Positions 9,994-57,614 of a stretch of 64,000 nucleotides of DNA are shown in pieces (within the stretch, counting starts at the first letter, position 1; the number at the start of each line of letters is the position of its first letter). The DNA is from Bacteroidota bacterium (GTDB taxonomy: Bacteria; Bacteroidota; Bacteroidia; Palsa-948). Where the stretch lies: assembly GCA_016213405.1 (NCBI GenBank), contig JACRAM010000054.1, positions 1 through 64,000 on the forward strand, in the 5' to 3' direction. Both the position numbers and the translations under genes were made by a program. The notes beneath the pieces were generated by a model. That model was not told where the DNA came from. It searched no databases and saw only the letters and a program-made list of their open reading frames with translations.

Positions 9994-10518
9994 ATGACGA
10001 AGATTTTACTCCTCTCCGACACACATAATTTTCTTAACGAAAAAGTTTTTAAGTATGCCGAACCCTGCGACCAGATATGGCATGCGGGAGATATCGGCAC
10101 CGTTGCGGTTACCGATGCGCTGAAAAAAATAAAACCTCTGGTTGCCGTTTACGGAAACATTGACGGAATGGATGTGCGGAAAGAATTCCCCCTGCACCAG
10201 CGCTTTATGTGCGAACAGGTGGATGTGTGGATTACGCACATTGGCGGAAGCCCTGGCAGATATTCTCCGGAGGTAAAAAGAATTTTAGACACCACCAACC
10301 CCGTTGGACAAAAACCAATGTCCCACGGGGCAAGACTTTTCATCTGCGGGCACTCGCATATTTTAAAAGTGATGTTTGACAAAAAACATAACCTGCTTTA
10401 TATGAACCCGGGCGCGGCAGGCAACTACGGCTTGCACAAAGTAAAAACCCTTTTGCGCTTTTCCATTGCAGGAAAAGAAATAAAAGACCTTGAAGTGATT
10501 GAGATTGGGAAACTGTAA
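9994..10518 (+). CDS. YfcE/MJ0936-type metallophosphodiesterase
   Basis: 174 residues from ATG 9994; a TTG two codons upstream is less likely. Metal-binding motifs are in the standard order: LLSDTHN (DxH), WHAGDIG (GD), VYGNIDG (GN-D), and HGARLFICGHSHILK with the final NPGA. These mark the small bacterial phosphodiesterases active on model phosphodiesters with Mn or Ni. The natural substrate is unknown. It is cytosolic and lies 83 bp after batE on the same strand, separated by a repeat, so it is probably a separate unit. Confidence 0.88.
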   Translation: MTKILLLSDTHNFLNEKVFKYAEPCDQIWHAGDIGTVAVTDALKKIKPLVAVYGNIDGMDVRKEFPLHQRFMCEQVDVWITHIGGSPGRYSPEVKRILDTTNPVGQKPMSHGARLFICGHSHILKVMFDKKHNLLYMNPGAAGNYGLHKVKTLLRFSIAGKEIKDLEVIEIGKL

Positions 10519-10519
10519 A

Positions 10520-10855
10520 CTATTTCCTTCTCTTGTATGCTGCAGCCGGTTCTGCAACACGGGAAAGTTGCGATGGCTGGTGATAGGGATTTATTTTTCG
10601 TTCAAGAGCAGAAAGAGAATTATCCGCGCCCAGAAATTCAGAAATATGATACACTTCATCAGAGCCGTCAAAATCAAAGCCAACTCCTGCCATGATATGA
10701 TATTTTTTTCGTTGAGATGATGAAAGCTTTTTAATAGCAGGAAACTTGCTCAGCGGAACAATAATAATCCTTCCGTCTGCTAAAAGCAATTGCATATCCG
10801 CATTCTTAAAATGGAGTGCTTTTATTTTCGGCAATGTATCTGCGTATCCGCTCAT
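10520..10855 (-). CDS. DUF2442 protein, partner of a DUF4160 gene
   Basis: 111 residues. The N-terminal part carries the DUF2442 pattern: a short sheet with LLADGRIIIVPLSKFPAIKKL, then RKKYHIMAGVGFDFDG, and the conserved ISEFLG that closes the domain. A basic tail follows (LERKINPY...YKRRK). DUF2442 genes often lie directly after DUF4160 genes and are suspected of forming toxin-antitoxin-like pairs, but no activity is established. Its start overlaps the end of the DUF4160 reading frame by 4 bp, as in the second pair at 50038-50552. It converges on the phosphodiesterase with a 1-bp gap. Confidence 0.8.
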   Translation of the reverse strand: MSGYADTLPKIKALHFKNADMQLLLADGRIIIVPLSKFPAIKKLSSSQRKKYHIMAGVGFDFDGSDEVYHISEFLGADNSLSALERKINPYHQPSQLSRVAEPAAAYKRRK

Positions 10856-11135
10856 TTTGTTTTTCGTATTGCTTTCACCTGTTTTCCTTTATAAAATTTA
10901 TTCAACTGGCTATGAAGAATTTCTTTGTTCTCTTTGATTAGTTTCTCAATCTCGTTCAGTTCTTTTTGTGAAAAACCGTAATTGTATTCAATTTCAATTT
11001 TGGGTTCAAGCCAGAACTTGCAGAGATTTGTCAAGCGTCTTTGCTGTCTCGGACATGCACATGCCTGCGCTTTTCTTTACTATCTGCCGAGAAAACAAGA
11101 AACACATATCTCAGATAAATAAGCAGTTTACCCAT
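10852..11135 (-). pseudogene. Frameshifted DUF4160 gene
   Basis: Two overlapping frames together make one DUF4160 protein. Frame one starts at ATG 11135, contains HVHVRDSKDA and stops at 11031-11033. Frame two picks up at about 11034 with KFWLEPKIEIEYNYGF and runs to 10852. The intact relative at 50274-50552 shows the same order of segments (PHIHF..., then LWLQNLE...ADFSAKELN). A single missing base in the GCTTGA region, probably one T, explains the break. It could be real decay, a recent mutation or a consensus error. The downstream DUF2442 gene is intact. Confidence 0.65.
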
Positions 11136-11244
11136 TTACAAAATTACAAAACTTTTGTACCGCCAAAGTCTATTTTCAACAAACATTGCCCTGCCTTGTT
11201 ATTAAGACTATATTTACCATTCACAAAATAAATTATATAATATC

Positions 11245-11439
11245 ATGAACGGCATTATTAAAAAGAAGACAGAAAAAGGTTTTGGTTTCATTAAAATTGA
11301 AGGTCAGGACAAAGATTTATTCTTTCACAGCAATTCATTAGTAGGTATCACTTACGATGAGCTTCACGAAGGAGACAATGTTACTTTCGATGTTGAAGAT
11401 GGCGCCAAGGGAAAGAACGCTGTCAACGTTAAGCGCTAA
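11245..11439 (+). CDS. Cold-shock domain protein
   Basis: 64 residues, a single cold-shock (OB-fold) domain. Both RNA-binding signatures are present: KGFGFIKIEG (RNP1-like) and KDLFFHSNSL (RNP2-like). It is slightly divergent from CspA (NGIIKKKTEKG at the start) and lacks the usual acidic loop, but the length is right. These proteins bind single-stranded RNA or DNA and melt structure during cold or growth transitions. It stands alone: convergent repeats lie on the right and the DUF4160 pair runs the other way on the left. A weak promoter-like TTG-N20-TATATTTA lies at 11186-11216. Confidence 0.9.
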   Translation: MNGIIKKKTEKGFGFIKIEGQDKDLFFHSNSLVGITYDELHEGDNVTFDVEDGAKGKNAVNVKR

Positions 11440-11710
11440 CATCTTTTATTTTTCATCTGCGCCTCTTCTGTTTTAAGAAGGGTTGTGATGGCTTGTTCCA
11501 TACCTTGAGGTGATTGGAGATTGGGAAGTTGTAGATGTTACTCAGTGCCGCGATGCGAACTTGCCGGCAAGGCAAAGAATTTGGAATTTGGGACTTGTCC
11601 CGAAGGAGTCCTTCGTGACCTTCAAAGGTTGAAAAACTAATCCGCTTTTGTTCCGCGCTTCGCAGTATGAATAGTATATCTTTGGCGGAACACTTCTAAT
11701 CTTTTGCTGA
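11440..11710. other. Repeat-bearing intergenic region with a possible promoter
   Basis: No gene is seen. It contains a perfect 12-bp palindrome CTTGCCGGCAAG (11560-11571), a family A fragment AATTTGGAATTTGGG (about 11579-11593), and CCGAAGGAGTCCTTCG (about 11600-11615). TATCTTTG at 11677-11684 matches the -7 consensus 27 bp upstream of the next ATG, without a well-placed -33 box. Confidence 0.45.
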
Positions 11711-45769: not shown

Positions 45770-48700
45770 TTACTTAATGCGCTTTCCGTTTTTGAAAAAA
45801 GCAACAAAAGCACCTGCATATCCCTGCGCTTTTAACTGGTCTTTGTACTCGGTCGCCTTCTCATATTCCCATGTTTGAAATTCACCGGCAGTATATTTAT
45901 AAACTCTATTTTCAATATACTCTTTTATATTTTTCGCTCCTTTGAATGTTGTGGCGTATTGCGATGCCGGGATTTGAGTTGAACTTGACATGATCTGTAT
46001 CCTGTAAATAACAGATGAAGAGGTATCTGCTGGTGAAACCAGAGGATTGGGATTGGGATTGGGATTAGGATTAGGATTAGGATTTGGAACAGGATTAGGA
46101 TTAGAGTTATTATTACTGTTTCCACTTATGTTCATCTGGCGTTTCTTTTCGCTGAAGATAAAATCAACCTGAAATTCTTTTGCGCCATCAAAACTTACGG
46201 TGTATTCCGGTTCCTGCAATGTAAATTGATCGCCAAAAATATTATTCACAGTTACCTTGTATTCTCCCGCCTCAGGCGCATAAAGGGTATAACTGCCATC
46301 ACTGGAGGTGAGGGCTGTAAAACTATTGCCGGCAGAATCGGTTGCAACTACCCTTATGTTCGCAACGGATGTCATGCCATTGGAAGAAAATTCATCTCTG
46401 AGCACAATGATGTGCCCGATTACCCTATAGCTTTGAGCAAAAGGGATGTAAAATGTGGTATCGCGAATAACCTTTGCCTTTTGCAATTGCCCGTTAATGT
46501 TGTATACGTCTTTCAGGTTAACGAGAGGATACACGCGCAAATCAAACTCTCCTTCAGGAATATGATAATACATTATCTGACCGAAATTATCTGTAACTAA
46601 TTCGATAGGGATGAATTGCCCGCGTTGCTTTACAGCTGTATTGGTCACGGAATCCATTTGCGATTCACGGTCAACAGAAATAACAATATCAGAAATTCCC
46701 TGCTCATTGTTATCCATTATTTTATTGCCGTTAATATCTTTAAAACATACCACTTTCAAATCATAATATTTTATTCCGGGCTGAGGTATGTCAAAAGTTT
46801 TTCTGAAGCCAAGGTTAAGGTAATATTTTCTGTTGTATATTTTTGCTCCTTCAGCGGTCACCCTGCTGGAGAAATACATGTTGTTGTCAACAAAGAATCT
46901 CCAGTCGTGATCAAAAAAGAAAGTGAAGCGGGCATTCAAAGTAATCCGTTCTGAATTGGCGAGCGCTTCATAATAATAGCTGTCATACGAAGACACGAGC
47001 ATTTTTTTATTGAAGTAATATTTCTCAAAATGCGGGGTGATTCGTATGGATTTGCTATAACTGTTGAAATAATAATAATCCTTCTGGGTATTCATATCAT
47101 GAGGTCCGTAGAAATAAAGAATATTAACTCCCCAATATTTCTGAATCATGTTCACTCCTGCATTGGCGTTAAAGAAAGAACTTTTTGAATAAGGTGATGG
47201 AGTTCCTATTGTAGAATCAATTGCAAACAAAATATAAGTATAACCGAAAGCAATAAAAGGGCTTATTAAACTGTGCGTGTTATTTTTATTGCTTAATCTG
47301 AAAGCAAGTTTAGGCGATATGCTTGAAAAGCGGGAAGTAATGCTATCGCCATTGTAATTGATTTTTAAATTTCTATGGTAGATGTGATCGAAAACAGGTC
47401 CTGCTGAAAGAGAAAGATGTGAATTCACTTTGTCCACTATTTCCGTTTTGTAATTTCCGGCAAGCAAATATTTTTCAGGATATAAGATTCCCTGGTTGTA
47501 GATGGTAGGATCCATCTGATTAATATTTATACCGCTGTTGAGATAGTATTTATTATTTATAAAATACTGTCCGTTGCCGTTGACAAGAATTCTTCCATTG
47601 GATTGAGAAAAATATTTTGATGTATAATTAACGTTTAATCGCGCGTGCGCTTTTTTAAGATTCATCCAATATTGAAGCTGTCCGCCATATCCATAGAAAG
47701 TTGCGCTGGGGTCTGCAGTAGTAATGAAATTGCCATTTGCATCAGTGAACGTTTGATTATCGTATACGTGGTTAGTTTGTGAAACTCCCAGCAAAAGGGC
47801 TACGCGGTGACCGGGTAAAAAGGGATAACTGGCGCGGGCTGACAAACCATAACTTTGAACTTTATTATAGTCATCAGAAATAAATGCTAAGGCAGAACTA
47901 AAATCTATAGACTTCCCCAGCATAATATCATGCTGAACATCGCCTGAATAAACCGGAGTTCCAACAGCCGCAGTGAATACACCGCTTATTTTCTGGTCAG
48001 GTTTTATTTTATAACTGCCGCCTATTCCCCGCCCACCGACACCTAACATACTTATTCCATACGAACCTATATCGCCCGCCATTGCCTGCCATTTATCTGC
48101 TGTGTAGATGGCGCGCATGCGCGTTCGCTGCCAAAGCGATTTTGCCAGATAAGGGTCATTCCCGTATCCCGACAGCGGAAGCCCCGGAATGCGAAGTGAG
48201 TAATTAAGTTTGTCGTCATTCTTAAATACCAGATCGCCATATGCGCCAAACACTATTCGCGGGTCAAATTCTGAAAGAAGATTGATGAGCTGAACATCTA
48301 TGGTGAGAGGAGAAAACCGCTCGGCAAGCACATTGTAATAATTGCTTTCAAGATATTTAAATAGTATGGATGTCTTTTTTACAAGAGTATCTGAAGTGGC
48401 AATTATTTTAACAGACATTTTTTGAAAATCTCTGTTCCACACGCCATTTTCTTCAAAAGGAATATATTTTACATGATACGTAAGGATGGTATCAAGGTGA
48501 GGTTTTAATTCAATGGATGTAAAATATTTATTTGCAAATGTGCCGTACATTTCCAATGAACTTCCGATGGTGAACTCCAGTTTCACCATCTCGCTGCCGT
48601 TTCCTTTATTCGACAACTTTACAGACATGGGAGCATATTCAGCATAGCGGTCAAAATAAATGGTTCGCTGAAGAGGGAAAACATCCCACCGTGTTTTTTT

Positions 48701-49237
48701 AGGGATGGTAACATAACATGCTTTACTTATCGAATACTGGTTTTTGTCAGAGAAAAGAGAACGAGTTGAAATCAACGTGGCGTTAATGATGTAGGACGTT
48801 CCGCCTGTGGAGGTTCTCGCCAGCGAAATCCGCATGGGTATATATTCGGTTTGTCCGGGATTTATGTTTACTGTTTTTTCGCTTTCAGAAATAAGTTTCC
48901 ATCCGTCAGGAACTGAAATTTTTACAACGCCTTGTACGGGCGCGGCATTTGTATTTGTTATTTTCAGAATATTAAAAAAGGTTGAATCGGTGCCGTGTTC
49001 GGTTTTTTCCTTCACAAACTCCATGAGCACAACGCTGTGGGAAGCCCCATCCCCCGCCTTCCCCGAAGGGGAAGGAGTTTCTCCCCCTTTGGGGGAGACG
49101 GAAGAGGGGGCTGCAGTATCTGCCGCAATAACCGCTGTTGAATCAGGTGCCTGAGCAAATAAATTATTATTTCTTACTAAAGAAAAAAATAAAAGAAAAG
49201 CCAAATAATAGTATATGTTGGTAGTAAATCTTTTCAC
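45770..49237 (-). CDS. Usher-like outer-membrane barrel protein with SPOR domain
   Basis: 1155 residues. A signal peptide ends near LFAQ, then a linker whose residues 41-64 come from a family B palindrome. Two Ig-like domains follow (about 65-165 NEW3-like, VKISVPDGWKLISESE; 170-295). The transmembrane barrel spans about 300-820 with many Tyr-rich strands. After it come an SdrD-B-like module (VCFKDINGNKIMDNNEQG), a carboxypeptidase-like sandwich, an NPNP linker and a SPOR domain (1072-1155, ending GYAGAFVAFFKNGKRIK). The order N-domain, large barrel, C-terminal sandwiches resembles fimbrial ushers, but I see no usher signature. It starts 11 bp after a pilin-like gene. Confidence 0.75.
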   Translation of the reverse strand: MKRFTTNIYYYLAFLLFFSLVRNNNLFAQAPDSTAVIAADTAAPSSVSPKGGETPSPSGKAGDGASHSVVLMEFVKEKTEHGTDSTFFNILKITNTNAAPVQGVVKISVPDGWKLISESEKTVNINPGQTEYIPMRISLARTSTGGTSYIINATLISTRSLFSDKNQYSISKACYVTIPKKTRWDVFPLQRTIYFDRYAEYAPMSVKLSNKGNGSEMVKLEFTIGSSLEMYGTFANKYFTSIELKPHLDTILTYHVKYIPFEENGVWNRDFQKMSVKIIATSDTLVKKTSILFKYLESNYYNVLAERFSPLTIDVQLINLLSEFDPRIVFGAYGDLVFKNDDKLNYSLRIPGLPLSGYGNDPYLAKSLWQRTRMRAIYTADKWQAMAGDIGSYGISMLGVGGRGIGGSYKIKPDQKISGVFTAAVGTPVYSGDVQHDIMLGKSIDFSSALAFISDDYNKVQSYGLSARASYPFLPGHRVALLLGVSQTNHVYDNQTFTDANGNFITTADPSATFYGYGGQLQYWMNLKKAHARLNVNYTSKYFSQSNGRILVNGNGQYFINNKYYLNSGININQMDPTIYNQGILYPEKYLLAGNYKTEIVDKVNSHLSLSAGPVFDHIYHRNLKINYNGDSITSRFSSISPKLAFRLSNKNNTHSLISPFIAFGYTYILFAIDSTIGTPSPYSKSSFFNANAGVNMIQKYWGVNILYFYGPHDMNTQKDYYYFNSYSKSIRITPHFEKYYFNKKMLVSSYDSYYYEALANSERITLNARFTFFFDHDWRFFVDNNMYFSSRVTAEGAKIYNRKYYLNLGFRKTFDIPQPGIKYYDLKVVCFKDINGNKIMDNNEQGISDIVISVDRESQMDSVTNTAVKQRGQFIPIELVTDNFGQIMYYHIPEGEFDLRVYPLVNLKDVYNINGQLQKAKVIRDTTFYIPFAQSYRVIGHIIVLRDEFSSNGMTSVANIRVVATDSAGNSFTALTSSDGSYTLYAPEAGEYKVTVNNIFGDQFTLQEPEYTVSFDGAKEFQVDFIFSEKKRQMNISGNSNNNSNPNPVPNPNPNPNPNPNPNPLVSPADTSSSVIYRIQIMSSSTQIPASQYATTFKGAKNIKEYIENRVYKYTAGEFQTWEYEKATEYKDQLKAQGYAGAFVAFFKNGKRIK
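46043..46106. repeat. GGGATT/GGATTA tandem coding the NP linker
   Basis: On the plus strand GGGATTGGGATTGGGATTAG and further TTAGGA words run for about 64 bases. On the coding strand they give NPNPNPNP. Four or more G-runs make a G-quadruplex possible on the non-coding strand. Confidence 0.7.
49048..49117. repeat. Family B palindromes in frame within the usher-like gene
   Basis: CCTTCCCCGAAGGGGAAGG and TCTCCCCCTTTGGGGGAGA lie side by side. They are read in the minus frame as SSVSPKGGETPSPSGKAGDG just after the signal peptide. The region is a low-complexity linker, so insertion here should be harmless. Confidence 0.75.
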
Positions 49238-49248
49238 CTAAGAGGTTT

Positions 49249-49881
49249 TTATGGGCTCATGAGCAATGTGAATACAATATCATCAGCATAAAAATCAGGC
49301 GTGCTGTTCAATAAACTGGTGGTTACTCCGCAACGGTAAGTAATAGAAATCTGGTCAAGCGTATAAACCAGGTTTTCAGGAGACGGAACATCTTCAATCT
49401 CATCTGCACCGCCACCGCTTCCATCTACTATAGGAACACCAGCACCTGAAGCAGGTAATGGTAAATAAGGAGGACCAGGAAATAAACTAACGCAGGTAAG
49501 ACAGCCACCGCTTATTGAAGCGCTCATTTCTATGGTGCTGAACAAAAGAGTATTGGCGGGATTGGTGCCTGTTATGGCTCCATCGCCATCGTTATCCTGC
49601 GCTTCAACACTTAGTGTCCACTGTGTATAATCATCAATACCATCACCGCCTGGAGGATTATTATCACCGGCAATATCCGTTACAGATATACCAAGAATAG
49701 TCCAGTTGGTGTACGTAATGCCTGCCTTGTATTCTGCAATTGAATTAAAAACAAAATCAAGATTGCCTCCGCCAAGCACTGTTAATCTGACTGATCCGCC
49801 CGGTGTTGAACTTTGTGCGTACAGACAATTCGCTGTATTTATCAAAAACACAATTACAATTGTAAACAAACGTAACATCAT
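49249..49881 (-). CDS. Pilin-like secreted subunit
   Basis: 210 residues. A signal peptide ends near LYAQ. The N-terminal strand SVRLTVLGGGNLDFVFNSIAEYKAGI is shared with the paralogues at 50553 and 53611. Four cysteines (GGCLTCVS, TYRCGVTT plus context) and a terminal strand FYADDIVFTLLMSP recall spore-coat-U/Csu-type pilins, which end in a similar Y-x-D-x-V strand. It lies 11 bp upstream of the usher-like gene and 3 bp after a T9SS-tail remnant. The pilin call is an inference from fold pattern and context. Confidence 0.65.
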   Translation of the reverse strand: MMLRLFTIVIVFLINTANCLYAQSSTPGGSVRLTVLGGGNLDFVFNSIAEYKAGITYTNWTILGISVTDIAGDNNPPGGDGIDDYTQWTLSVEAQDNDGDGAITGTNPANTLLFSTIEMSASISGGCLTCVSLFPGPPYLPLPASGAGVPIVDGSGGGADEIEDVPSPENLVYTLDQISITYRCGVTTSLLNSTPDFYADDIVFTLLMSP

Positions 49882-49884
49882 ATT

Positions 49885-50013
49885 TTAATATTCCTTTAAA
49901 ATTAATAGCTTCTGAAAGTATTCTTTATCCGATAGTGTAACCTTACCTATATATATACCATCAGGCAATCTATCCATTGTTAAATTGAAGAGTGAGTTGA
50001 TAGGGTTGAGCAT
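49885..50013 (-). pseudogene. Remnant 3' end of a T9SS sorting-domain gene
   Basis: 42 codons ending GIYIGKVTLSDKEYFQKLL plus six residues, with TAA at 49885-49887. It matches the end of the complete gene at 50793-53510 (CIGKITLSDKEYFQKLLLLN). The stop is 3 bp before the next ATG, exactly as in the complete copy. It is a leftover of a duplicated junction. Confidence 0.8.
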
Positions 50014-50037
50014 TTAGTATTTTGATAATGAGTAACA

Positions 50038-50277
50038 TTATGCGAAAATTTCTTTTCCAGCCAGGAAATCCTTTATTTCAAAAAGTATTTCCCTTGCAAA
50101 CATTACTCCTCTCATATTCTTCGTTTCAGGGTCAATTAGAAGCGTATATTTTTTTCGTTTATCAGGGGGTAATTTTTTTAAAGAAGGAAAATGGTTTAAA
50201 GGAAGAATAATTATCCTGTCATCATCCATGTAAACAGTTATTCTTCCTCTTTCTTTGAAAGATATTTTTTCTATCAT
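50038..50277 (-). CDS. DUF2442 protein (second pair)
   Basis: 79 residues, only the DUF2442 core: ISFKERGRITVYMDDDRIIILPLNHFPSLKKL, then RKKYTLLIDPETKNMRG and the closing FEIKDFLAG. Compared with the copy at 10520-10855 it lacks the basic C-terminal tail. The start overlaps the DUF4160 stop by 4 bp. The pair lies between two copies of a T9SS-tail/pilin junction, on the same strand as the surface genes. Confidence 0.8.
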   Translation of the reverse strand: MIEKISFKERGRITVYMDDDRIIILPLNHFPSLKKLPPDKRKKYTLLIDPETKNMRGVMFAREILFEIKDFLAGKEIFA

Positions 50278-50552
50278 TTTAAAGTAAGTTTTATGGGATG
50301 AGTTTCTTTTTTCCCGAATGAATTATATAAATCAATTAATTCTTTCTGATATTTTGTTGCCAGCTTTTTCACTATATTTAATTCTTTTGCGCTAAAATCT
50401 GCCGGATGCATTATTTCTAAATTTTGAAGCCACAATTTACCATAAATGTATTTTGATTTATGTTTACTGAAATGTATATGTGGAGCTTCAGTTTTCACAT
50501 CTTGTGCAAAGATAAAAAATGTAATGAATTTATAGAAAGCAAGAACAGGCAT
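50274..50552 (-). CDS. DUF4160 protein (second pair)
   Basis: 92 residues. The N-terminal half holds the PHIHF motif; the second half LWLQNLEIMHPADFSAKELNIVKKLATKYQKELI follows the DUF4160 pattern (FWLEP...GFSAKEL). It is the intact counterpart of the frameshifted gene at 10852-11135. It begins directly after the stop of a truncated pilin-like gene. A role in a toxin-antitoxin-like pair with DUF2442 is suspected from conserved pairing but not demonstrated. Confidence 0.78.
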   Translation of the reverse strand: MPVLAFYKFITFFIFAQDVKTEAPHIHFSKHKSKYIYGKLWLQNLEIMHPADFSAKELNIVKKLATKYQKELIDLYNSFGKKETHPIKLTLK

Positions 50553-50789
50553 TTATATTTTAAATTTCAAATCCTGAATGTAAAATTTATTTTTATCCAA
50601 CAGAACTTTCTCATGAAAAACATCAATAACTTTTGTGCTTCCACAGCAAACTCCATCTCCAATTGAATTAAAAATAAAATCAAGATTTCCGCCACCCATC
50701 ACTCTCACCCTCACCGAACCGTCTGACTGAGAAAAAACGCATTGATATAAATTCAAAAATAAAAGCAGAATCTGCAAACGTAACATCAT
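50553..50789 (-). pseudogene. Truncated pilin-like paralogue
   Basis: 78 codons. The signal peptide and SVRVRVMGGGNLDFIFNSI match the first 45 or so residues of the subunit at 49249-49881. After FNSI the sequence diverges (GDGVCCGSTKVIDVFHEKVL) and ends at the DUF4160 start. The beta-rich body and terminal strand are lost, so it is probably nonfunctional. The start is 3 bp after the T9SS gene, the same spacing as in the other copy. Confidence 0.75.
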
Positions 50790-50792
50790 ATT

Positions 50793-53510
50793 TTAGTATG
50801 TATTTAGGAGCAATAACTTCTGAAAATATTCTTTATCTGATAATGTAATCTTACCTATACACACTCCATCAGGCAATCCATTTCCGGAAAAGGAAACGTT
50901 CAATGTTCCGCTGTCTGCATTATTATCAAACAATAAGGCAACCTTATTGCCAATTAAATTAAACACTTCAACTTTTACTTTTTCAGGATATGAAAGGTGA
51001 ATAGAGATGGTAGTATTATCATTAAATGGATTTGGATAAACTTCTATCAGATTAATAGGAGTACTTTCTTCTTGAATGTCAGAAGAAGTTATTCTGTAAT
51101 TAATACAAGGACCGCAGTAATCACCATGCGCTAAATGGGCTGACAGCGCGTTTGGACTAATGCAAAGCGTTTGTGGATTGCCGGGATTACCGGGAGGAAT
51201 ATGGCATATCACTACTTTTTCATTTTTGTTTCCGCATTTAAAGTTGCTGCAATCCTGAGGTTGCTGAACAAAGACTGTAACATTATCGTTGCTGCTGCAA
51301 CCATTCATGTCAATGACAGTAACTGTATATGTAGTAGTAACAGTCGGGCTTACTGTAATGCTTTGTGCTGTTTGTCCTGTGCTCCACAAAAAACTATAAG
51401 AGGGTGTGCCTCCGCTTACAATTGCTGTTAATGCAGTGATTTGACCGATAATAATGGTTTGGTCTGCACCGGCATTGGCAACTAATTGAAGCGGTTCAAT
51501 AATTACTACCGAAGCCGTTGCATTGCATCCGTTAGCATCGCTAACAGTTACGCTGTATGTTCCGGCAAACAATCCGGTTGCAGTGGCTGTGGTTTGCCCG
51601 TTGCTCCATACATGTATATAAGGAGGTGTTCCGCCTGAAACGTTTACCGTTGCACTGCCGTTGCTTCCTCCAAAACACGAAACATTTGTTTGGGATGTAA
51701 CTAAAGTAAGAGTCGCAGGTTCTGTAATAATAACTGTTGCAATTGCTGTGCATCCATTGGCATCGGTGATTATAACAGAATAATTTCCTGCCGATAAACC
51801 AGTGGCTGATGAAGTTGTTTGCCCGTTACTCCATACATATATATAAGGCGGTGTTCCGCCTGATGCAGTTACGGATGCGGTTCCATTGTTTCCACCAAAA
51901 CAGGAGGCATTAGTTTGGGTTGCAGTGATAGTGATAGCGGTAGGTTCTGTAATTGAAACAATGCCCGAAGCAGTAGCTCCGCTTGCATCAATTACTACAA
52001 CCGTATAAGTTCCTGCACATAGTCCTGTAGCAGCAGGTGTAGTTTGTCCTGTGGGTGACCAAAAAAATGTGTATGGTGTAGTGCTTCCTGATGGTGTGGC
52101 GGTAGCAGTACCAAGACAACCGCCATTACAAATATTATCAGCGTGAGAAACGCTAACAGTAAGAGGAGTAATTCCGCAAAGGGAAGAAACAACAACTGAA
52201 GGAGTACCAATAGTAGGCGTAAAGTTTATTAAAACTGTAGGAGGCGTAGAAGTATTCGTTGAAAAAGTAATGTCTTGAGTATTACGCATGGCTTCTGTAA
52301 ACACAGCGTTACTTTCATTACATCCACTGTTACCTACAGCATCTGTTTTAATAAAATAAAAATCAAGAGTGCCACCAAAACTGCTAGTGGATCCAACGGT
52401 TGCATATCCTCCATCAGAAGTAATTTGCAATGAATGAGGGAGATCCGCTGCATCACCGTTTGTACCTCCGTATAATTTAGCCCATTGAATATTTCCTGAA
52501 GAATTAATTTTCAGCAGGCATTTATCATAATTTTGAAAAAGATTCTGACCAGTTGCGGCATCTCCTGAAACGATGAATCCTCCATCAGAAGTTTGTTGTA
52601 TATCACTTCCCTCTTCATGGTTAGTTGTTCCATAGGTTTTTGACCACAATACATTTCCATTGCTATTTGTTTTAACTACCAATATATCATGCACTCCTAA
52701 TTGAGAAAAAGGCGATACTGTATGTGAGCCAACAATAATAAACCCACCATCATTGGTTTCTCTCCCGGACCTAAAAACAGTTGACTCAGCAAGACCTGTA
52801 TTACCATATATCTTATTCCAAAGCAAATTGCCACCGGAATCGGTTTTTAATAAAGATGCGCTATTGAAACCAATAGGCGCTTGATTTTGAGTTCCCACCA
52901 AAGCATACCCGTTGTCATTTGTTTGGATTACAAAAGAAGTTGAAGACCCTTGGTCACCAAATACTTTACTCCATTCAAGTGCACCATTTGAATCTGTTTT
53001 CAATAAGTATTTAGTTAAAGAAGTACCAAAACTTGATGTAATCCCGGAAATAATAAATCCTCCGTCTGTTGTTTGTGCCATTGTATTCGCTAAGTCCACA
53101 CCAGATACTCCTCCATATAGTTTAGTCCATAATAAATTCCCGTTCATATCAAATTTGTTTAAATATATTTTTCTCGAAAATTGTCCTACAATGCCGCCAT
53201 GCACACCCGTCCAGATAAATCCTCCATCGTATGTTTGCTGAACAATTCCAGAAAGTCCACTCACAGGCTGATTGATTTGTTTGCTCCATAAAATATTACC
53301 TGAGGCATCCGTTCTTGTAATATTAGAAACACCTGTACGGGGAGCGCCAAACACATATCCTCCATCACTGTTTTGCCAAACACTCATTATGTTCGTAGTT
53401 TGTACCTTATAAACTTTTTGAAATGATGTTTGTCCAAAAAAGATTTGCGGAATAAAAATTCCTGATAATAATATAAGGTAAATGAAAAATGAAAAGATAT
53501 GTTTTTTCAT
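50793..53510 (-). CDS. SprB-repeat surface protein with T9SS sorting domain
   Basis: 905 residues from ATG 53510; an earlier start adds 8 unlikely residues. A signal peptide ends near IFFGQ. Residues about 40-400 contain eight repeats of the type GGFIISGITSS...YLLKTDSNGALEWSKVFG, suggesting a propeller. SprB-type repeats follow at about 465-690 (CFGGNNGTASVTASGGTPPY, ATGLSAGNYSVIITDANGC), then a PKD-like unit and a T9SS sorting domain (EVYPNPFNDNTTISI, ITLSDKEYFQKLLL). It should be exported by the T9SS. The position between pilin-like genes suggests a tip or surface adhesin. Confidence 0.85.
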   Translation of the reverse strand: MKKHIFSFFIYLILLSGIFIPQIFFGQTSFQKVYKVQTTNIMSVWQNSDGGYVFGAPRTGVSNITRTDASGNILWSKQINQPVSGLSGIVQQTYDGGFIWTGVHGGIVGQFSRKIYLNKFDMNGNLLWTKLYGGVSGVDLANTMAQTTDGGFIISGITSSFGTSLTKYLLKTDSNGALEWSKVFGDQGSSTSFVIQTNDNGYALVGTQNQAPIGFNSASLLKTDSGGNLLWNKIYGNTGLAESTVFRSGRETNDGGFIIVGSHTVSPFSQLGVHDILVVKTNSNGNVLWSKTYGTTNHEEGSDIQQTSDGGFIVSGDAATGQNLFQNYDKCLLKINSSGNIQWAKLYGGTNGDAADLPHSLQITSDGGYATVGSTSSFGGTLDFYFIKTDAVGNSGCNESNAVFTEAMRNTQDITFSTNTSTPPTVLINFTPTIGTPSVVVSSLCGITPLTVSVSHADNICNGGCLGTATATPSGSTTPYTFFWSPTGQTTPAATGLCAGTYTVVVIDASGATASGIVSITEPTAITITATQTNASCFGGNNGTASVTASGGTPPYIYVWSNGQTTSSATGLSAGNYSVIITDANGCTAIATVIITEPATLTLVTSQTNVSCFGGSNGSATVNVSGGTPPYIHVWSNGQTTATATGLFAGTYSVTVSDANGCNATASVVIIEPLQLVANAGADQTIIIGQITALTAIVSGGTPSYSFLWSTGQTAQSITVSPTVTTTYTVTVIDMNGCSSNDNVTVFVQQPQDCSNFKCGNKNEKVVICHIPPGNPGNPQTLCISPNALSAHLAHGDYCGPCINYRITSSDIQEESTPINLIEVYPNPFNDNTTISIHLSYPEKVKVEVFNLIGNKVALLFDNNADSGTLNVSFSGNGLPDGVCIGKITLSDKEYFQKLLLLNTY

Positions 53511-53547
53511 GGGAATGAGTTTGTTGTTAAACAATTTAATCTCTAAG

Positions 53548-53590
53548 AAAAAACCCCGATAAAGTATTTCACAATATCGGGGTTCTTTTA
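53548..53590 (-). terminator. Intrinsic terminator after the distal pilin-like gene
   Basis: AACCCCGATA (53552-53561) pairs with TATCGGGGTT (53575-53584), followed on the minus strand by TTTTTTC. It ends the message of 53611-54297 before the SprB-repeat gene. Confidence 0.8.
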
Positions 53591-53610
53591 CTAACCCAAT
53601 GAAATAAGAG

Positions 53611-54297
53611 TTAGAGTGAAGTCAGTTCAAGAAAAACATTGGTTACATACCTGTCCGGAGGAATATTCTGGTCAAGCAGGTTTATTGCCGACATTGGGCT
53701 GTTAGCCGATACGGCTGGAGTAGTGCCGCACTCCCAATTGATAGTGAAATTATTATCTGCCACATCTCCACCGTTTCCGGTACCGGAAGTAAAGAGAATT
53801 ACAGTACCAACACCTGCATATTGAAGTAATCCGTTGGGAATATTGGGAACACCAAGAGCAGAAATGTTATCTGTGTAAGCGCCAGTACGGTCAACGTCAA
53901 GAATAGCGCTACAGCAAGTATTATTTGCTGCAATTGTACCCCAATCGCAGGTGAAACCAACATTATCCAACGCCATGATGTGCGTTGCGTTTGTAGGATC
54001 ATCTGTTCCAATGAGGTTTGCATCTTCTGCGCCCATATCTAACTGCCACTCAGTGGAAGAAGCAATCTGAACATCAGAATCATAAAAGCCATTACCTTGT
54101 GCATTGGTAATGCCGTTTTTGTAATCTTCAATGTCATTAAACACGAACTCAATGTTGCCGCCATTGGTAACATGAATGCGCAAAATCTGAACCAGCGTTA
54201 CTCCCAAGGGAATAACAGCCCTGTCAGAAACCGGCTGTGCCATAGCAGAACCGGCAATTATCATGGCTATGCATGATGCGAGAATTGTTTTTTTCAT
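53611..54297 (-). CDS. Pilin-like secreted subunit, distal copy
   Basis: 228 residues. The signal peptide MKKTILASCIAMIIAGSAMA is classical, not repeat-derived. Residues 38-66 (ILRIHVTNGGNIEFVFNDIEDYKNGI) match the other subunits. Cysteines occur as CDWG, NNTCCSAI and NWECGTTP, and the end RYVTNVFLELTSL has the alternating pattern of a donor/acceptor strand. It has its own terminator and a TACATTTG -7-like box at 54339-54346. With strong expression signals it could be the main structural subunit; this is inference. Confidence 0.68.
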   Translation of the reverse strand: MKKTILASCIAMIIAGSAMAQPVSDRAVIPLGVTLVQILRIHVTNGGNIEFVFNDIEDYKNGITNAQGNGFYDSDVQIASSTEWQLDMGAEDANLIGTDDPTNATHIMALDNVGFTCDWGTIAANNTCCSAILDVDRTGAYTDNISALGVPNIPNGLLQYAGVGTVILFTSGTGNGGDVADNNFTINWECGTTPAVSANSPMSAINLLDQNIPPDRYVTNVFLELTSL

Positions 54298-54338
54298 AGA
54301 TTTTGTTTTTGTTTTTGTTTCGTTTAATTGGATGAATG

Positions 54339-54346
54339 CAAATGTA
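54339..54346 (-). promoter_or_regulatory. Candidate -7 box of the distal pilin-like gene
   Basis: TACATTTG on the minus strand matches TAnnTTTG, 42 bp before the ATG. A TTG 24 bp further upstream is slightly too far for an ideal -33 box. Confidence 0.35.
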
Positions 54347-54474
54347 ATAATAAAATTAAAGCATATTGTTCAATAAAAACTAATTATTTTTTATGAAGTA
54401 TCTGAATACATGATGAAAAAGGAAAAGGTTACTCCCCTGCTACGCTGAAAATAATTAAAGGTTACACGGAAAAC

Positions 54475-54631
54475 CAATTTATTAGGACTTTTACGCAAAA
54501 TGTACAATTCTTGTATTTCTCTGCGGTTCTCAGCGTCATTTTTCTCTGTGAACTCTGCGGTTAAAATTTTTACCGCAGAGAACGCTGAGATTTTCGCAGA
54601 GAGCCGCAGAGTTTGCGTAAGTCCTATTTAT
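54475..54631. repeat. Composite palindrome of about 155 bp
   Basis: Outer arms TTATTAGGACTT...ACGCAAA and TTTGCGTAAGTCCTATTTA are complementary. Inside are CTCTGCGGTTCTCAGCGT against ACGCTGAGA...GAGCCGCAGAG, and the core CTCTGCGGT/ACCGCAGAG around AAAATTTTT. The whole could fold into one long cruciform. It lies in the gap between the leftward subunit gene and the rightward small protein; no ORF is present. The word family recurs at 71-103. Confidence 0.8.
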
Positions 54632-54748
54632 TTTGGTTCGGATTCCTGTAAAGTTAATGCGGAGAAAGGTCTCCTTTAGTAAAACGATTGTTTTTCATCA
54701 GAGTTTCATCCTTTTACTCAAAAAATCAATAATTTTTATCATTCCTAC

Positions 54749-54916
54749 AAACATTTCTGCCATAAAAATAAGTGTGGCAATGGCATCTACAAGTATTTTG
54801 TCAGAGAAAATAAATGTTTTGTCAGAAGAAATAAGTATTTTGTCAGAGAAAATAAATGTTTTGTCAGAGAAAATAAGTGTGGCAATGGAAGCCACAAGTA
54901 TTTTGTCAGAGAAAAT
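54749..54916. repeat. 21-bp minisatellite with two unit types
   Basis: Eight 21-bp units. Type one is AAGTATTTTGTCAGAGAAAA plus T, with an AAATGTTTTGTC variant; type two is AAGTGTGGCAATGG with a variable end. There are no spacers. The plus strand reads as heptads (SILSEKI, NVLSEKI), which suggests a coiled coil, but the ORF has no plausible start or ending. It lies about 90 bp upstream of the gene at 55009 and has the same period as the array at 31140-31370. Confidence 0.85.
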
Positions 54917-55008
54917 AATTAAAGCCATGCACAATATACACTGGCAAGATCCGTTCTCATTTGTATAAATCAGCCCCGATGATGAATCGGGACACAAAAT
55001 TAAATTAA

Positions 55009-55374
55009 ATGAAAATCACTTATCCAACCACCCATGACGGATGGTTAAAACTCGGCAACTTAATATTTGCGAAGAGCGAAAACTTAGGCGATGAACCAGC
55101 CATCAACCCTGCCGATGCTGATCCCAAAAAAGTAGGAACGCTGGCAAGCACTGCCGCAAAAAAACTGGCAACAGGCGCGCAACTTCACAAAGATGCCGAA
55201 ACAAGCAATGAAGCAGGAGAAAAAGATATTACGGAAATGGAATCAGAAATCCGCAGAGTTGCCAAAGTGCTTACCGGCAGGAATCAGAAAAACCCGAAAG
55301 CCACCGGAGTATGGGGATTTACAATGGACGAAAGCAGCGGCACTCCACCGCCTGTGCCTCCTGTTGCCAAGTAA
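55009..55374 (+). CDS. Small helical protein with proline-rich tail (second)
   Basis: 121 residues, no signal peptide. Begins MKITYPTTHDGWLKLGNLIF, then an alanine/lysine-rich helical part (STAAKKLATGAQLHKDAETS, EKDITEMESEIRRVAKVL) and the tail ESSGTPPPVPPVAK. Length and layout equal those of the protein at 31424-31789, and both sit beside a 21-bp minisatellite. The family is unknown to me. A structural or surface-binding role is possible; nothing in the sequence proves it. Confidence 0.65.
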   Translation: MKITYPTTHDGWLKLGNLIFAKSENLGDEPAINPADADPKKVGTLASTAAKKLATGAQLHKDAETSNEAGEKDITEMESEIRRVAKVLTGRNQKNPKATGVWGFTMDESSGTPPPVPPVAK

Positions 55375-55562
55375 GCAAAGAAATTTTCTAAAAATAATCC
55401 TTCTCCACTCAATCGGAGAGGGATTTTTATTTCCATCAGACAAGGAGGGAGAGGTTTCCAATTATTAAAGATTGATAAAACTGAAAAATAATTACATTTG
55501 CCGACAGAAAATCACAAGTAATCGGTGAGCGGTCATCGGTGAACGGTGGATAACAAACAGTT
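55375..55562. repeat. Gap with hairpin and GGTGAGCGGTCATCGGTGAA words
   Basis: CTCCACTCAATCGGAGAG (about 55403-55420) can fold into a small hairpin. AATCGGTGAGCGGTCATCGG (55520-55539) belongs to a word family whose complement (CCGATTACCGATTACC) encodes part of the signal peptide of the next gene. Confidence 0.5.
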
Positions 55563-56372
55563 ATGAGAAATAAATTTCACATATATACATTCTGCCTTTT
55601 ACTGATTACTGGTAACCGATTACCGATTACCTTTCTTAATGCCCAGGATTTTGAAGTTGCCCCCGTAAAAATGCTTTATGACTGCGAGCCCGGGCAAATT
55701 CAAACCAAGACCTTATATATCCGCAATCACGCCAACCAAAAACAGCAATTCAATGTCGTTGCAGTTGATTTGCCTGCTGATAGTTTAGGAAAGAAAAAAA
55801 CTTCTGAAAACAAATCCTGCAAAGACTGGATTACGCTGAATCCCTCATTCTTTGATTTGAATCCGAATGAACAAAAAGAAGTGAAAGTGGTGATGCAGGT
55901 GCCGCCCGGTCATTCAGAAACCCGCTGGTGCATGGTGTTTGTGAGCGCCACCGAAGAACAAACCGCCCTTTCGGCAGACAAACAAATGAAAGGCAGCGTA
56001 AAAGTAAAGCCCCGCATAGGCGTGAAAGTGATTCAATCGCCCAAATCAAATATCAATTACAAGGGAGCCATTTCTAACCTGAAAGAAACAACTCTGCCGG
56101 CAGACACGCTGCGCACGTTTCAGGCAAACATATCAAACACAGGCGACAAAGTAATAGAAGGAAAAATTTATCTCGTATTTTCAAATCTTGAAACAGCAAA
56201 AGAAATAAAAGAAAAACCTCAGCGCATTACCGTGCTTCCGGGCGCAACAAAAAAAATTACCCTCATAATGCCCCCAAAAATCCCTGCCGGAAAATATTCA
56301 CTTGCCGCCATTCTCGACTATGGCAACAACTCCGCGCTGGAAGCAGTTCAGATGAATGTTGAAGTGAAGTAA
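55563..56372 (+). CDS. PapD-like two-domain periplasmic protein (putative chaperone)
   Basis: 269 residues. The signal peptide contains LLLITGNRLPITFLNAQ, encoded by GATTACCGATTACC words. Two Ig-like domains follow: residues about 25-150 (FEVAPVKMLYDCEPGQIQTK, then WITLNPSFFDLNPNEQKEVK) and about 160-269 (RTFQANISNTGDKVIEGKIY, LPGATKKITLIMPPKIPAGK). The F-x-L-NP-x-E-x-K segment resembles the F1-G1 region of PapD-type and DUF916-type proteins. It could chaperone the pilin-like subunits encoded at 49-54 kb. There is no lipobox. Confidence 0.62.
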   Translation: MRNKFHIYTFCLLLITGNRLPITFLNAQDFEVAPVKMLYDCEPGQIQTKTLYIRNHANQKQQFNVVAVDLPADSLGKKKTSENKSCKDWITLNPSFFDLNPNEQKEVKVVMQVPPGHSETRWCMVFVSATEEQTALSADKQMKGSVKVKPRIGVKVIQSPKSNINYKGAISNLKETTLPADTLRTFQANISNTGDKVIEGKIYLVFSNLETAKEIKEKPQRITVLPGATKKITLIMPPKIPAGKYSLAAILDYGNNSALEAVQMNVEVK

Positions 56373-56375
56373 AAA

Positions 56376-56403
56376 GCCCCACCCGACCTCCCCGAAGGGG
56401 AGG
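56376..56403. repeat. Family B palindrome between chaperone-like and MORN genes
   Basis: CCTCCCCGAAGGGGAGGGG in a 42-bp gap; a second member begins 42 bp later inside the MORN signal peptide. Both form strong hairpins. Confidence 0.7.
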
Positions 56404-56414
56404 GGAAAATCAAC

Positions 56415-57614
56415 ATGAAGAAAAAAATTCTGATACTCTTAATTTTCTCCCTTCCCTTCGGGAAGGGATGGGGATGGGCTTTTGCACAAACCCAGCAAAC
56501 CTTTTACGATGCCGATAAAAAAATAAAAAAAGAAATCTTTCATACAAAAAAAGAATCGGGAAAAACAATGAAGGATGGTTTGTATCAAATCTATTATGAG
56601 AATGGCAAACCCTGGCAGGAAGGAAATTACAAAGAAGATAAATTAGAAGGAGACTGGAAGATTTATTTTAACAACGGGCAGCTGAAACAAACCGTTCATT
56701 ATGAAAACGGACGGAGGCAGGGAAACTCAAAAATATATTATGACGATGGCATACTCTTTCAGGAACTGATTTACAAAGATGACAAGATGGATGGGAAAAA
56801 TATTTTTCATCACACCAACGGAAAAATCATGGAAGTGTCGGAATACAAAAACGACACGCTCAACGGAGAAAGCAGGGGCTTTAATGAAAACGGAAGCAGG
56901 TCATTCAACAGAATATATCTCAACGGCAAGCGCAACGGCAACTGCGAAGGGTTTTATGATAACGGATTGCAAAAAGAAAAATATACCTGCGTAAATGATT
57001 TGTATGAAGGAGAATTTATTTCGTATTACAAAGATTCGCTCAACGGAAAACAAAAAACCTGCACTTACAAAAACGGAAAGCTCAACGGAACCTTCACCGG
57101 ATATTATTCCAACGGCTCCATTGAAATGAAAGGAACCTACGCGAACGATTCCCTGCAGGGAGAATACACGCATTATTTCTCATCTAAAACTCAGGGAGTT
57201 CAGCAAGGAATACCTGTGGAAAAAGGTAATTATAAGAACAACTCGCGCACCGGATTATGGACATCGTGGTATCCGGATGGGAAGAATTACACTGCCGGAA
57301 ATTTTGTCAACGGAAAATATGAGGGCGAATGGAAAGTATATCACCCAAACGGAAATCTGAAACAAACGGGCGCTTACTCAAACGGAATTGAAAACGGTTT
57401 TTGGAAATACTACCATCCCAACGGCAACACGTATATGGAAGGAAAATATACTGATGGAAAACAAGAAGGACCCTGGAAAGTTTATTACGAAGATGGAAAA
57501 CTACTTGCCGATTACAACTGGCTGAACGGAATCCTTAATGGCAAACAAACTGCCTACGATAAAGAAGGAAAAGTGGCTGAAGTTAAAGTTTATGAAAACG
57601 GAGTGCAGAAATGA
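56415..57614 (+). CDS. MORN-repeat protein (YwqK-like)
   Basis: 399 residues. The signal peptide FSLPFGKGWGWAFAQ is encoded by a family B palindrome. From residue 50 on there are about 15 MORN_2-type units with the pattern GxWKxYYxNGxLKxxGxYxNGxxxG (examples YENGKPWQEGNYKEDKLEG, YHPNGNLKQTGAYSNGIENG). The C-terminus ends VYENGVQK. MORN_2 proteins in Bacteroidota are exported, and databases often label them YwqK-family antitoxin, but a toxin partner is not visible here. It follows the chaperone-like gene by 42 bp and may belong to the same unit. Confidence 0.85.
   Translation: MKKKILILLIFSLPFGKGWGWAFAQTQQTFYDADKKIKKEIFHTKKESGKTMKDGLYQIYYENGKPWQEGNYKEDKLEGDWKIYFNNGQLKQTVHYENGRRQGNSKIYYDDGILFQELIYKDDKMDGKNIFHHTNGKIMEVSEYKNDTLNGESRGFNENGSRSFNRIYLNGKRNGNCEGFYDNGLQKEKYTCVNDLYEGEFISYYKDSLNGKQKTCTYKNGKLNGTFTGYYSNGSIEMKGTYANDSLQGEYTHYFSSKTQGVQQGIPVEKGNYKNNSRTGLWTSWYPDGKNYTAGNFVNGKYEGEWKVYHPNGNLKQTGAYSNGIENGFWKYYHPNGNTYMEGKYTDGKQEGPWKVYYEDGKLLADYNWLNGILNGKQTAYDKEGKVAEVKVYENGVQK

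Follow-up and report, generated by a model that had tools for sequence, protein, structure and literature searches.

Pairs of small genes encoding a DUF4160 and a DUF2442 protein have been described in two settings. In Dickeya dadantii they form the toxin-antitoxin system DhiTA (PMC8198452), and in Thermus they constitute a plasmid persistence module (PMC12724237). For these relatives of the pair studied here, growth inhibition by the toxin and rescue by the antitoxin are on record in the two papers. In both systems the gene of the DUF4160 toxin comes first and that of the DUF2442 protein second, and in Dickeya the two genes overlap over a short distance. The same toxin-first order, and likewise a short overlap, is found in a pair present in the window, that is, the whole stretch of 64,000 nucleotides of Bacteroidota DNA that was analysed. 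Movement with duplication of the target is not described for Dickeya DhiTA or for the Thermus module in the available parts of these two papers.

Insertion with a long target duplication is known for restriction-modification genes (Nobusato et al. 2000; Furuta et al. 2010; as cited in PMC3874152 and PMC3031569). Those insertions and the window locus have in common that a small gene complex, unlinked to a known mobile element, is flanked on both sides by direct repeats of its target, and that the duplications are long (in the order of 100 bp) and variable. The locus described here differs from them in its DUF4160-DUF2442 cargo, in its unit of ~620 bp, and in that the window copy carries a relic of the 3' end of another gene. 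Some integrative elements enter the 3' ends of genes by site-specific recombination. Like these elements, the inserts at the pair loci have the 3' end of a gene at either border; unlike them, they contain no integrase, involve many different target genes and have repeats of variable length. Our literature search found no description of insertion with a long target duplication for the DUF4160-DUF2442 family, an absence that is not proof.

The DUF4160-DUF2442 pair and its surroundings

All genes of the locus lie on the minus strand, in the order subC, T9SS gene, truncated subunit, DUF4160, DUF2442, T9SS tail, subB and usher-like gene. The DUF4160 protein (92 aa, 50274..50552), a candidate DhiT-type toxin, scored 38.3 bits against PF13711 (cut-off 23), and the DUF2442 protein (79 aa, 50038..50277), a candidate DhiA-type antitoxin, only just passed PF10387 with 24.4 bits (cut-off 23.9); the genes overlap by 4 bp. 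Judging from these features of the sequence, the pair would work as a toxin and an antitoxin. The two proteins are divergent from DhiTA, as they lack an NCBIfam match. In the case of toxin_DhiT (NF048015), the window DUF4160 protein gave no match and its relative at locus L085 reached 26.4 bits against a cut-off of 100; because this cut-off was not attained, the window protein is filed in the broad Pfam family only and not as DhiT itself. The window DUF2442 protein shares 39% identity over 76 aa with the partner protein of L085.

On the upstream side of the pair, the subC subunit (228 aa, 53611..54297), a neighbour kept in relatives, is followed by an intact gene for a secreted T9SS protein of 913 aa (50793..53534) that contains SprB repeats and ends in a T9SS type A sorting domain (Pfam SprB 4.3e-33, Por_Secre_tail 3.2e-8; TIGR04183 above its cut-off), for which a search of the genus returned matches to the repeat region only and none over the full length. 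On the downstream side are the intact subB subunit (210 aa, 49249..49881), whose orthologues in same-genus relatives are 39-54% identical and occupy the same place beside the usher-like gene, and the usher-like outer-membrane protein itself (1155 aa, 45770..49237), which is also kept in relatives. The subunits of the locus matched no Pfam or NCBIfam family. The wider region (45770-57614) is conserved within the genus and also across other families of this class, and includes a PapD-like chaperone and a MORN-like repeat protein, divergent from the two subunit types and the usher-like barrel.

A preliminary description of this DNA held that the junction between the T9SS tail and the subunit is present twice, and we found this to be correct: the two copies are homologous, with a local alignment score of 167, whereas 300 shuffles reached 30 at most. 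The left (upstream) copy (50656..50881) comprises the final 29 T9SS codons, 3 bp and the first ~44 codons of the subunit, and the right (downstream) copy (49733..49973) is a direct repeat of it. The similarity consists of two blocks, 49867-49973 versus 50775-50881 (107 nt, 83%) and 49733-49798 versus 50656-50721 (66 nt, 79%), which together form one gapped repeat of ~240 bp with 71-83% identity. Each copy consists of a T9SS-type C-terminal tail, a stop codon, 3 bp and the subunit start MMLRL, and on the right the T9SS gene is indeed reduced to a leftover end, an orphan ORF of 42 codons (49885..50013), which spans only the last part of the Por_Secre_tail domain and stays below its cut-off (13.9 bits versus 27). 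The subunit in the other copy had been described as cut after FNSI, with the DUF4160 gene starting immediately behind it. The homology does end there, after FNSI(G/A)(D/E), but ~80 nt of the 3' end of a sufB gene intervene before DUF4160, and the truncated ORF (78 aa, 50553..50789) consists of the subunit start and then an out-of-frame sufB relic. The short direct repeats suspected at 50037 and 50553 are absent, the longest common word being 4 nt; the actual repeats are the 240-bp copies.

Between these copies lies an insert of 682 bp that holds the DUF4160-DUF2442 pair and the sufB relic, hence two short genes and scraps only, and neither a transposase nor an integrase. No source was found for the 64-bp segment between DUF2442 and the right copy (49974..50037), which has no significant match elsewhere in its own genome and a single weak match (E 0.002) among the fetched loci. 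The two subunit copies are 76% identical to each other, and 71% and 77% identical to the orthologue of the same-genus genome G005. Codon differences between the copies are synonymous and non-synonymous in 8 and 8 cases in the tail and in 7 and 6 cases in the subunit block, counts that do not decide on a past function of both copies. If the duplication arose by insertion, the event is old, since the copies are only 71-83% identical.

The sufB relic (50593..50673) includes the stop codon of that gene, and its first bases overlap the left target copy. It matched the 3' ends of sufB of genomes G042 and G034 (blastn 1.6e-11 and 2.6e-11), and also those of further genomes, many of them of the class. 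The stretch is identical to the G042 end at 63 of 80 positions (score 44; the shuffled maximum of 19 was computed with another sufB end, which itself scores 38), and it is considered a relic because a one-base shift puts it out of the sufB reading frame. The sufB gene of the own genome is located on contig 63 and is not the closest match. In the alignment, read by eye, the switch from subunit to sufB occurs within two or three shared bases. Since the insert carries ~70-80 bp of a sufB 3' end, the unit was probably once located directly behind a sufB gene, a former site that we deduce from this scrap and that would resemble the positions of related units behind secA, tpiA, metK and other genes. 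Counting against our best explanation, none of 125 loci had a pair placed behind an intact sufB. The gap between sufB and sufC contains a GIY-YIG-like ORF in the own genome (contig 63; L073 5762-6097) and a four-helix-bundle-like ORF in G042 (L087 3706-4314), both named by eye; with passengers that differ between genomes, the site may be a hot spot where small mobile genes settle.

Direct repeats, unit borders and an empty site at other loci

A DUF4160 match is present in 94 of 395 genomes of the class, and the DUF4160-DUF2442 pairs are scattered. In relatives they often follow immediately after a housekeeping gene of the same orientation, such as secA, tpiA, metK and a thiolase gene (names assigned by eye). 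Direct repeats flank 27 of 112 non-redundant DUF4160 loci, the window itself left out, compared with 12 of 560 pseudo-inserts placed at random within the same loci (Fisher p = 4e-14), and a single case of inverted flanking repeats stands against these 27 direct ones. The repeats of the 27 loci are 22-156 bp long (median 63) and mostly represent the 3' end of the gene upstream, sometimes instead the beginning of the gene downstream (L203) or intergenic DNA. Examples are the 3' ends of secA (42 bp), of tpiA (51 bp) and of a SAICAR-synthase-like gene (92 bp, 95% identical), and a 48-bp repeat on contig 116 of the own genome. The copies are 95% identical at three loci where the insertion appears to be recent (L147, L171 and L177). 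It should be noted that no adjacent repeat was seen at the metK (L081) and thiolase (L082) loci or at L074, L085 and L086, so that this footprint is not universal. In fact, a repeat is not detectable at about three quarters of the DUF4160 loci, which counts against the best explanation; these loci may reflect decay or another route.

Pairs that are 88-99% identical in differing contexts share only a unit of ~620 bp, which begins ~55-70 bp upstream of the DUF4160 start codon and ends ~18-25 bp beyond the stop codon of DUF2442. To look for an empty site, we took a single housekeeping locus, the SAICAR-synthase-like one of G058 (L171), and joined the sequences on either side of its pair. The resulting sequence aligns without interruption to two species of the same genus, G156 (445 bases, 89%) and G420 (470 bases, 88%). 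In both of these the pair is missing and the 92-bp target is present once; G058 and G401, by contrast, have the pair together with two target copies. On the evidence of these alignments, the SAICAR-synthase-like locus is an insertion with a long target duplication. Taken across related bacteria, the comparisons suggest that the same pair has moved repeatedly, usually to sites behind housekeeping genes, and point to a route that requires no transposase.

Some further loci show related arrangements. The window contains a second, degraded DhiTA-like pair (10520-11140, within 10487-11533 on the minus strand), of which the toxin ORF is frameshifted and the antitoxin ORF is open. It lies downstream of a metallophosphoesterase-like gene. 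The 3' end of that gene (10487-10517) is found again at 11502-11533 as a direct repeat of 32 bp (87.5%), and a cold-shock-like gene is also located between the repeats. At L086 (G031, contig 20), a 322-bp direct duplication (86%) has one copy ~2 kb upstream of the pair and the other 0.1-0.4 kb downstream, and at L216 a repeat of 84-89 bp occurs once upstream and twice downstream of the DUF4160 pair, as if there had been two rounds of duplication.

Origin of the window arrangement

The locus is present in four species of the same genus and in two outgroups of the same class (G013 and G018). A first contig scan with the subunit protein as query gave no match. Three of the same-genus species (G005, G004 and G002) have the order subC-subB-usher, with one subB and only a spacer between the two subunit genes; in the fourth (G001) the usher gene directly follows subB, and the fetched stretch lacks subC. 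In the outgroups no T9SS gene lies between the subunits, and G013 has an additional subC-like gene. At this locus the relatives have no DUF4160-DUF2442 pair and a single subB, and the T9SS half of the target is also absent; the T9SS scraps gave only a weak match (E 0.019) to the intergenic region of G005. The proposal that the pair arrived at this site is supported. The T9SS gene would have preceded it, because the T9SS end adjoins both subunit starts. A strain with an empty T9SS-subB junction was not found, which follows from the T9SS gene being unique to the own genome within the genus sample.

We consider it likely that the window arrangement arose when a transposase-free DhiT (DUF4160)-DhiA (DUF2442) unit inserted with a target duplication of ~240 bp. 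In this scenario, the pair, together with a sufB tail from its probable earlier site, would have entered the first third of a subunit gene behind the T9SS gene, duplicating ~240 bp of the target. The downstream copy would give back (or keep) an intact subB beside the usher gene, and the upstream copy would leave the T9SS gene whole, together with a dead subunit fragment. Both neighbouring functions would survive, making such an insertion tolerable. Our guess is that host repair or replication-linked joining may have produced the long duplication. That the window locus arose by the process seen elsewhere, and in this order of events, is suggested by the younger cases. Several points count against this explanation: the window duplication (240 bp) exceeds the maximum among the 27 loci (156 bp), the copies have diverged from each other about as much as either has from the G005 orthologue, and no strain with the bare T9SS-subB junction was found. 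Since the duplication is longer than all of the others and the event is old, the window is explained by analogy with younger cases, and the explanation is unproven.

The preliminary description had instead favoured an ancestral tandem of the T9SS gene and the subunit, the middle of which, comprising the end of the first subunit and most of the second T9SS gene, was replaced by the pair and, as we would now add, the sufB scrap. The anatomy of the locus fits a tandem equally well, and the copies are old and have kept their reading frame, with codon differences suggesting that constraint may have acted on both. Yet the five relatives in which the subC side is visible (G002, G004, G005, G013 and G018) have a single subunit of the subB type, with no intervening T9SS gene, and no uninterrupted tandem was found in them. 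A tandem would also require a duplication of 3-4 kb plus a replacement deletion, and leaves the target repeats around unrelated insertions of the same pair family unexplained. Given that the family is flanked by repeats at unrelated sites and that one empty target is single-copy and uninterrupted, the duplication is more simply viewed as a product of insertion than as a survivor of an older tandem, which we regard as unlikely.

It is also rather improbable that the copies differed from the start, as they would if a fragment from a related strain, holding a diverged T9SS-tail/subB region and the pair, had been joined by homology at one end and illegitimately at the other. Such an origin could account for the two copies being as divergent from each other as either is from the G005 orthologue, and the sufB scrap does attest to illegitimate joining in the history of the insert. 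On the other hand, it requires a donor that already had the pair at the same junction, and the 95% identity at the three apparently recent loci is what duplication at insertion predicts. The genome assembly consists of 127 contigs, and an assembly artefact or chance similarity has therefore to be considered; it is hardly credible given that assembly errors cannot produce the 17-29% difference between the copies, that their alignment score far exceeds the shuffle maximum, and that the arrangement recurs across many independent genomes.

Returning to insertion with target duplication, a speculative extension, to which we give little credence, is that DhiTA-type pairs are self-mobilising minimal elements, with the ~620-bp unit acting as its own transposon. 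The toxin or the toxin-antitoxin complex would then make or exploit a wide staggered break, from which the long duplication of the target would result, and could drag along the 3' end of the former host gene.

How small toxin-antitoxin modules spread without transposases is a long-standing question. With the unit borders, the target repeats, an empty site and the relic of a likely former site, footprints are now available that make the route testable. Insertion with a long target duplication, so far described for restriction-modification genes, would on confirmation also apply to a family of toxin-antitoxin genes. Annotators should be aware that oddly truncated genes next to such pairs can be scars of an insertion.
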